Below, in pieces: positions 52,403-57,230 of a stretch of DNA of 64,000 nucleotides. This stretch comes from Chitinophagales bacterium. GTDB taxonomy: Bacteria > Bacteroidota > Bacteroidia > Chitinophagales > JADJOU01. A program made the translations under genes and the position numbers. Under the pieces are notes generated by a model. It searched no databases and was not told where the DNA came from. It was given only the letters and a program-made list of their open reading frames with translations. The first letter of the stretch is position 1. Every line of letters begins with the position of its first letter. Location of the stretch: positions 1-64,000 of the forward strand of contig JAEUUY010000021.1 of assembly GCA_016787225.1 (NCBI GenBank), read 5' to 3'.

Positions 52403-52491
52403 TATATTTGCTGTAAGGTTTTCCCGATGAAAGTCGGGATTAGTTTTGTTTTCATAGTATTTTGGAGCTTGGTTTACCAAGCTCCTTTTTT
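52403..52491 (+). ncRNA. Short terminated leader or small RNA upstream of TonB-dependent receptor
   Basis: A -7 element TAtaTTTG (52403-52410) is followed by a hairpin TCCCGA/TCGGGA (52422-52439) and then a strong intrinsic terminator (GGAGCTTGG 52464-52472 with CCAAGCTCC 52477-52485, then six T). This would yield a transcript of about 75 bases ending before the receptor gene at 52544. It may be a free small RNA or an attenuating leader. Confidence 0.55.
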
Positions 52492-56340: not shown

Positions 56341-56395
56341 ATAGTCGCAATATAATACTTTAACTTTAAATCTTTAGAAATTTTAATTATATAAA

Positions 56396-56422
56396 AAAAG
56401 GACTTCAAAATGAAGTCCTTTT
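56396..56422 (-). terminator. Terminator, copy 2 (duplicated tRNA 3' flank)
   Basis: AAAAGGACTTC/GAAGTCCTTTT with loop AAAAT, nearly identical to the one at 56805-56831 including flanking bases (TATAAAAAAA before, AGTGGTCC after). It lies next to a tRNA-Met-like fragment. Confidence 0.75.
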
Positions 56423-56424
56423 AG

Positions 56425-56513
56425 TGGTCCTCCCGATAGTAATCGGGATAAATGCGGCTCAAACCATCGACCACCTGTCCCGATAACGATCGGGAGAGTC
56501 AGGTGCTAATATA
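56425..56513 (-). repeat. tRNA-Met-like fragment carrying two palindromes
   Basis: A partial copy of the tRNA-Met sequence in which 18-bp palindromes (TCCCGATAGTAATCGGGA at about 56431-56448; TCCCGATAACGATCGGGA at about 56478-56495) replace the T-arm side and the anticodon loop. The flanking tRNA pieces AGTGGTCC, GACCACCTG and GAGTCAGGTGCT are preserved. Confidence 0.75.
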
Positions 56514-56792
56514 TTTTAATACTAAATTAATCGAGATATTCGGGTATTTAATCAAATCTTCAATATATTTTCTAGATTTCATTCTTTTAATATGTCTTTC
56601 AATATTAATAGCTTGAGCATATGAGCTCCATTCTATGTAATGGAATAATGTCCAGTCGCTAGCTTGGGACGTGTATTTGTTGCCATAATCACTTGCATTA
56701 TGTTTAGCTATTCTAGAATTTAAATCATCTTGAGTAACTCCAATTTAATATTTATCAATTACTTGACTATAAAATATTTTACAAGCTATCAT
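56499..56792 (-). pseudogene. GIY-YIG nuclease gene broken by an in-frame stop
   Basis: Reading from ATG 56792 the protein begins Met-Ile-Ala-Cys-Lys-Ile-Phe-Tyr-Ser and reaches Asp-Lys-Tyr, where TAA (56745-56747) takes the place of the second Tyr of the expected Lys-Tyr-Tyr-Ile-Gly motif. The frame then continues Ile-Gly-Val-Thr-Gln-Asp-Asp-Leu-Asn-Ser-Arg-Ile-Ala-Lys-His-Asn, Lys-Tyr-Thr-Ser and Lys-Arg-Met-Lys-Ser-Arg-Lys-Tyr-Ile-Glu, the pattern of small GIY-YIG proteins (about 95 residues). One base change (TAA from TAT/TAC) explains the break. The final stop lies within the tRNA-like fragment. GIY-YIG nucleases cut DNA and include homing enzymes. Confidence 0.75.
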
Positions 56793-56804
56793 AAGTTGTA
56801 TAAA

Positions 56805-56831
56805 AAAAGGACTTCAAAATGAAGTCCTTTT
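56805..56831 (-). terminator. Terminator of tRNA-Met
   Basis: AAAAGGACTTC (56805-56815) pairs with GAAGTCCTTTT (56821-56831). On the minus strand it follows the tRNA 3' end by 2 bases and ends in a run of T. Confidence 0.85.
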
Positions 56832-56833
56832 AG

Positions 56834-56907
56834 TGGTCCCTGCTGGGCTCGAACCAGCGACCACCTGATTATGAGTCAGGTGCTCTAACCAACTGAGCTA
56901 AGAGACC
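56834..56907 (-). tRNA. tRNA-Met (CAT)
   Basis: Complete 74-base cloverleaf: acceptor GGTCTCT/AGGGACC, D arm GCTC-AGTTGGTTA-GAGC, anticodon arm CCTGA-CTCATAA-TCAGG with CAT, T arm GCTGG-TTCGAGC-CCAGC, discriminator A. It lacks the initiator features (C1-A72 mismatch, three G-C pairs in the anticodon stem), so it is the elongator Met tRNA, or possibly Ile(CAT) after lysidine modification. Confidence 0.9.
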
Positions 56908-56933
56908 GTTGGTTTTAATTTTTTTTCTCTTCC

Positions 56934-57208
56934 AGCCACCTGTCCCGATAGCTATCGGGAGAGTCAGGTGCTCTAACCAATCCCGATGGCAATCGGGACT
57001 AAGAGACCGTTGGTTTTAATTTTTTTCTCATCCGACCACCTGTCCCGATAGCTATCGGGAGATTCAGGCACTCCAACCAATCCCGTTGTCTATCGGGACT
57101 AAGAGACCGTTGGTTTTAAATTTTTTCCCTTCCGACCACCTATCTCGATAGCTATCGGGAGAGTCAGGCGCTCCAACCAATCCCGTTGACTATCGGGACT
57201 AAGAGACC
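56934..57208 (-). repeat. Three 100-bp tandem tRNA-Met 5'-half copies with inserted palindromes
   Basis: Copies at 56934-57008, 57034-57108 and 57134-57208 repeat with a period of exactly 100 bases. Each keeps the tRNA-Met 5' acceptor, D-arm and anticodon-arm flanks but replaces five D-loop bases and five anticodon-loop bases with 18-bp palindromes (TCCCGATAGCTATCGGGA and variants). The intervening GTTGGTTTTAATTTTTTT spacer equals the 5' flank of the real tRNA. T arm and 3' acceptor are absent. Confidence 0.9.
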
Positions 57209-57230
57209 TTGATTTTCTAAAATCGGAGTG

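Follow-up and report, generated by a model that had tools for sequence, protein, structure and literature searches.

What are the broken tRNA copies beside an intact tRNA-Met gene in this Chitinophagales bacterium, and why are they interrupted by palindromes? The window, i.e. the whole 64,000-nucleotide stretch of DNA that was analysed, carries a tRNA-Met (CAT) on its minus strand at 56833-56907, which was called by ARAGORN and matched Rfam RF00005 with 72.5 bits. Upstream of this gene, to its right in the window, three direct repeats of 100 bp, the copies that the first-pass annotation had reported, occupy 56914-57213, with start-to-start spacings of 100 and 100 and 83-88% identity to the first repeat. 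Each 100-bp unit contains the first ~50 bases of the neighbouring tRNA-Met and two palindromes. The three 5' remnants, also on the minus strand, lie at 56936-57008 (tRNA bases 1 to ~50, with palindromes at 56943-56960 in the anticodon arm and 56981-56998 in the D arm), 57033-57108 (palindromes at 57043-57060 and 57081-57098) and 57133-57208 (palindromes at 57143-57160 and 57181-57198, each with one mismatch to the pattern).

The palindromes in the 5' copies are of the type TCCCGATAGCTATCGGGA (TCCCGA..TCGGGA). With up to three mismatches, TCCCGATNNNNATCGGGA was found 11 times in the window compared to 1.2 expected, and none of 100 shuffles contained as many. In the D arm of each copy CTCAG (tRNA 11-15) is replaced by an 18-bp palindrome, and in the anticodon arm an 18-bp palindrome takes the place of ATAAT (bases 36-40 of the 75-mer, Sprinzl 35-39). 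The first-pass annotation had described these as exchanges of five loop bases in each arm, with the stems kept and both arms drawn out as long hairpins. The exchange of five bases for 18 bp in each arm was confirmed, but it is not confined to the loops, and the stems are not all kept: C11-C13 of the 5' stem strand are gone from the D arm, and the anticodon arm lacks two bases of the anticodon as well as the stem base that comes first on the 3' side. Long hairpins are one possible fold, but pairing between the two palindromes of a copy is possible as well. The palindrome that had been noted at 52422-52439, TCCCGATGAAAGTCGGGA, does exist and is found letter for letter in the sister genome G001 (C77:12132), but it is isolated and intergenic, outside any tRNA copy.

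The first-pass annotation missed the other half of the locus. Downstream of the intact tRNA, all on the minus strand, come a terminator-like hairpin with a T run (56805-56831, an inverted repeat), a GIY-YIG nuclease reading frame (56511-56792; PF01541, alignment model and translation) with one in-frame TAA (KY*IGVT), a palindrome-broken 3' tRNA remnant (56424-56507) and a second copy of the terminator (56391-56423). The 3' remnant covers tRNA bases 24-75 and has palindromes at 56478-56495 in the anticodon arm and at 56431-56448 in the T arm/acceptor. The stretch 56391-56430 is 100% identical to 56800-56839. Judging by its sequence, the GIY-YIG copy in the window is likely inactive; an intact orthologue is present in G001 (L046). 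The other Rfam matches to the locus (HPnc0260, Plastid-ycf2 and mir-5736) were weak, stayed below gathering scores and were judged to be chance. A group I intron with a homing endonuclease was rejected, with no Rfam intron match at gathering, none up to E 5 in the window stretch and an intact tRNA beside the gene.

The window's genome (G000) was searched by pattern and by family, and the tRNA-Met locus was compared among its sisters. In G001 the layout is the same, the nuclease gene is intact and there are two 5' remnants; G003 has a single 5' remnant and G002 a bare tRNA-Met, so that the number of 5' copies runs from three in the window to zero. Both occupied (G000 and G001) and empty (G002) alleles therefore exist among the sisters; the G002 site falls at two overlapping contig ends, and its emptiness rests on both flanks. 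The tRNA-Met genes of G002 (empty) and G000 (occupied) are identical over 75 bases. In the more distant G005 there are two tandem nuclease-gene stretches, each ending in a palindrome-bearing tRNA-Met half. The copies are not an artefact of one assembly, because sisters carry the locus with two (G001) or one (G003) of them and equivalent loci lie inside isolate contigs of ~1 Mb. At another locus in G001 (L055, C59:370-760), a tRNA-Ile is followed by two 3' remnants in which TCCCGAT palindromes replace exactly ATAAT, as in the window's tRNA-Met; this locus also has a T-loop piece with a CCTGTC palindrome and no nuclease gene between the remnants.

The association of GIY-YIG genes with tRNAs was found well beyond this locus. 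G000 contains 12 PF01541 matches, six of which lie 35-90 bp beyond a tRNA (Met, Val, Asn, Lys, Phe and fMet), and a seventh is followed by the apparent end of a tRNA-Ser. Wherever the end of a G000 locus was readable, a palindrome-broken partial tRNA lay 3' of the nuclease gene, with TCCCGCACGTGCGGGA in the Asn remnant, CCCCGAAGCTTCGGGG in Phe, TCCGCCAAAGGCGGA in fMet and larger hairpins in Val and Lys. The alignment model detected the nuclease family in 45 of 60 genomes of the order. Fetched loci of 103 unique related domains showed an intact same-strand tRNA, of many isotypes, within 170 bp in 62 cases (upstream in 48, downstream in 14). The set with a downstream tRNA has a mirror layout, in which a 5' remnant with a palindrome is followed by the nuclease and then by the intact tRNA. 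The other 41 domains had no adjoining tRNA; some of these are at contig ends, and others are other GIY-YIG genes. One GIY-YIG gene of G000 without an adjoining tRNA (L066, C11:274697-274918) is flanked by dispersed repeats of the GTCATTTCGACCGCAGGGAGAAATC type.

A wider DNA pattern scan, which covered GTDB genomes and used only the fMet remnant, returned 43 stretches in records of Bacteroidota, Balneolaceae, KSB1 and Marinimicrobia. The same pattern was absent from viral contigs, and no phage carrier was seen. Similar loci are present in isolates (Longitalea, Halpernia and Niastella) as well as in MAGs of Balneolaceae, KSB1 and Marinimicrobia. The isolate Longitalea luteola has a 5' remnant, a tRNA-fMet and then three nuclease-plus-remnant units, and the isolate Halpernia humi has two units. 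Tandem units of this kind have ~0.4-0.5 kb between tRNA and remnant, which the GIY-YIG gene fills. No description of the element was found in the open literature searched, where the relevant papers were those on SegB and on REPs.

The nuclease is a protein of ~95 aa, in which the catalytic-type residues Y5, Y16, G18, R27, H31 and E65 were invariant in 33 rows of the alignment. The dN/dS values of two pairs (~0.12 and 0.18) indicate purifying selection. An AlphaFold2 model had a pLDDT of 92.5, and its nearest structures were HIGLE, UPF0213 and Slx1, none of them below E 0.001. PDB sequence matches were weak, with UPF0213 at 0.019. At the level of sequence, the locus thus has the features of a GIY-YIG homing element, namely the residues, a gene beside its target and occupied and empty alleles.

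We propose, with a probability of about 0.68, that the locus is the footprint of a small selfish homing-endonuclease element that enters tRNA genes. The proposal draws on the anatomy of the locus, its recurrence at many isotypes, the occupied and empty states, the conserved residues, purifying selection and the agreement between palindrome family and nuclease clade described below; the cleavage step and the role of the palindrome are inferred. Each element would have a single gene, that of the ~95-aa nuclease. Its standard anatomy would be one or more palindromed 5' remnants, the intact tRNA, a terminator, the GIY-YIG gene, a palindromed 3' remnant and a terminator copy, and the mirror form would be 5' remnant, GIY-YIG gene and intact tRNA. 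The nuclease would cleave an empty tRNA gene at a position specific to its clade, at or beside the point where the remnants have the palindrome, and donor-templated repair would copy the cassette in and regenerate an intact tRNA. A single crossover between the element-borne tRNA segment and the chromosomal tRNA would leave tRNA bases 1-60 and 20-75 on the two sides. The palindrome may be the element's own site, either as a mark that makes dead copies uncuttable or as a cognate recognition hairpin. Later recombination could have produced tandem remnants that lack a nuclease gene, such as those to the right of the window's tRNA. Some observations count against the homing reading. The intact carrier tRNA is identical to that of the empty relative, and its escape from cutting is therefore not accounted for; about half of G000's TCCCGAT palindromes lie outside tRNA copies; and 41 of the 103 domains have no adjoining tRNA.

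A palindromic insert was present in 69 of 103 unique remnants from protein-found loci, which is probably a lower bound since part of the remaining inserts result from chaining errors in the script. A perfect stem of at least 6 was seen in 68 of 103 inserts of 12-45 nt (66%), compared to 4.3% of random segments of equal length. The 5' remnants usually cover tRNA bases 1-60 and the 3' remnants bases 20-75; truncation differs from locus to locus, and within one locus the 5' and 3' remnants for the most part agree in the tRNA position at which the palindrome sits. The arm affected was the anticodon arm in 29 remnants, the T arm in 11, the D arm in 7 and the variable arm in 5. The suggestion of a palindromic element aimed at tRNA loops thus holds insofar as the copies broken by palindromes come from tRNAs of many isotypes and are hit in the anticodon, T or D arm. 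A rule of loops only is weak, with 47 of 52 insert junctions overlapping a loop compared to 41.5 expected, so that what is preferred are positions that go with the nuclease clade, and not loops in themselves.

Two further loci carry hairpins in structured RNA genes or their copies. L114 (G060:C31) is a tRNA-Val-like copy of full length in which the palindrome TCCCGATTTACAATCGGGA makes up the anticodon arm; ARAGORN gave it the anticodon TAC, and it could function as a tRNA, with an anticodon arm derived from a palindrome. At L054 (G000:C17:1-700), the 3' part of a 5S rRNA is repeated behind it in three tandem copies of ~200 bp, all of them with a hairpin insert (TGCTGACGAAGCGAAGCATGTCAGCA...CGTCAGTA, and TCCCGATAGTTATCGGGA in the last copy), which is a footprint of the same kind at an rRNA gene. 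The contig starts at this locus, and no GIY-YIG gene was seen in its first 1600 bases.

Palindrome family changed only 4 times on a tree of 44 nuclease domains, and again 4 times on a tree of 34 domains that were found without use of the palindrome (minimum 3). On the latter tree, shuffled labels gave a mean of 13.8 changes and none of 200 shuffles was as low as 4. Other traits changed more often: tRNA arm 6 times, isotype 16 times and host family 22 times. Going by the sequence trees, palindrome family follows nuclease clade better than it follows isotype, arm or host family. Pattern rules supplied the labels, of which one for family and one for arm were corrected by hand, and the tree is built on 78 columns, so that deep forks are weak and single forks unsure. 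The CCTGCC clade illustrates the pattern, as it spans three Arg anticodons and tRNAs for Ser, Leu, Phe and Glu (5 amino-acid isotypes), 3 arms and both layouts. The palindromes of this clade are pure insertions, and most of them interrupt a T loop at GTTC|RA or a D loop at GGATA|GA.

This agreement also lends weight to a rather doubtful alternative, in which the nuclease binds and cuts its own palindrome as a hairpin or cruciform, and the two form a REP-like mobile pair that settles in hairpin-rich tRNA genes. The two readings differ in what is cut. Palindromes of the same family are scattered through genomes with the nuclease and nearly absent from those without it, and the nearest folds to the model include HIGLE and Slx1, a branched-DNA nuclease; these fold matches have E above 0.001, however. 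Cutting the occupied allele would also favour the loss of that allele, and we know of no GIY-YIG enzyme with strand-transfer activity. For the role of the palindrome, the clade match favours recognition, and the lack of a known joining activity among GIY-YIG enzymes favours the simpler homing reading. As a tentative extension, there may be a class of mobile systems made up of a nuclease and a palindrome, with the GIY-YIG enzyme recognising its own clade-specific palindrome and spreading it, and with structured RNA genes (tRNAs and perhaps 5S rRNA) as landing sites. Such systems would be REP-like with a non-RAYT enzyme, and a candidate source of the enzyme-less palindromes of Bacteroidota.

Across 60 genomes, the number of palindromes (the remnants themselves included) rose with the number of nuclease matches (Spearman 0.62, p 1.6e-7). 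The 15 genomes without a nuclease match had 0-3 palindromes, and genomes with the nuclease had up to 42. The location outside tRNA copies of about half of G000's TCCCGAT palindromes goes part of the way towards the earlier caveat that insertion might show no tRNA preference. Dense groups also occur: G025 (C2:1200428-1232703) has seven exact CCTGCCTGCCGGCAGGCAGG and several TCCGCC palindromes in 33 kb, and this genome has three GIY-YIG matches. L002, L003 and L006 share a dispersed repeat in which GGAATTCTGTAATAGTCC stands beside TCCCGATAGCTATCGGGA and TGGACTAAACACAATTCACAT, and which looks like a separate miniature element around the same palindrome.

An unlikely reading takes the palindromes as scars only. 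Extra tRNA copies would be harmful or cuttable, any palindrome that happened to land in them would be kept, and the palindromes would be unrelated repeats of the host. TCCCG and other families are indeed host-wide repeats as well, one interruption suffices per remnant, and intact tRNAs never bear palindromes. However, any mutation would do for this purpose, yet most remnants have palindromes, and their family goes with the nuclease clade and not with the host family (4 compared to 22 changes).

It is very improbable that the remnants are functional RNAs, such as decoys or processing signals made from tRNA arms. They would be co-transcribed with the tRNA or the nuclease, and their folds are stable (z -3.0 to -5.6), but the palindromes alone account for the folding, the copy number varies from 0 to 3 among sister species, and truncation varies per locus; nothing was found in support of the decoy or processing substrate suggested earlier. 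Least credible of all is the chance landing of REP/RAYT elements in tRNA loops, since despite short dispersed palindromes near tRNA copies and Y1 transposase domains in G000, G001, G013 and others, G002 and G003 have palindromes and no PF01797 match for the REP-associated transposase that the first-pass annotation suggested looking for, the gene beside the remnants is a GIY-YIG and not a Y1 gene, and the palindromes have no GTAG foot and are flanked directly by tRNA bases, e.g. CTC|TCCCGAT..ATCGGGA|CAG.

Among known systems, SegB of phages T4 and T6 appears closest in action to the proposed homing element, by analogy. The segB gene reportedly lies beside the tRNA cluster of these phages (Brok-Volchanskaya 2008), and a GIY-YIG gene beside tRNA genes is also what is seen here. 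SegB is a free-standing homing endonuclease of the GIY-YIG type; it cuts inside tRNA genes, has the reported motif RAWTSGAAC and promotes the spread or amplification of tRNA segments, and cutting of donor alleles by enzymes of this kind is said to be inefficient (PMC13096335). In our comparison, the T-loop consensus GTTCGAATC is complementary to RAWTSGAAC, and this motif matches the GTTC|RA junctions of the CCTGCC clade. SegB is a phage gene and is not known to come with palindromes or half-tRNA remnants, whereas the element here is chromosomal, encodes ~95 aa and has an intact tRNA between palindrome-broken halves.

Mobile endonuclease genes of mitochondria duplicate part of their host gene, and Allomyces has double-hairpin elements. 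These resemble the element in that an endonuclease gene sits by a regenerated host gene with a leftover fragment, and in having palindromic hairpins in RNA genes. They differ in belonging to fungal mitochondria and mostly to protein genes, and we know of no hairpin family paired with a nuclease clade among them. Tyrosine-recombinase genomic islands also use tRNA genes, restore an intact tRNA and leave a partial copy; the element here is ~0.4-0.5 kb, a length that its GIY-YIG gene fills, and leaves palindromed remnants, 5' ones included. REP-RAYT systems likewise pair short palindromes with a cognate nuclease-type enzyme, in lineage-specific families and as singles and arrays (PMC3733652). RAYTs are Y1 (HUH) transposases and REPs have a GTAG foot, in contrast to the GIY-YIG enzyme, the lack of GTAG and the palindromes inside tRNA copies found here. 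CGTC repeats, which also occur in Bacteroidetes, have no dedicated transposase (PMC3733652), and a link between them and the GIY-YIG element is only a lead.

Small GIY-YIG proteins are frequent in these genomes and have had no assigned role. Many of them can now be placed at tRNA genes and given a likely life style, that of homing while the tRNA is restored, and a candidate partner in the form of a clade-specific palindrome. For annotators, half-tRNAs beside real tRNAs in these genomes are a warning, as they are footprints of an element and not simple tRNA decay. The finding also bears on which enzyme spreads palindromes in bacteria where they lack a dedicated transposase, as with the CGTC repeats (PMC3733652), and it would join two fields that have so far been separate, homing endonucleases and palindromic repeats.
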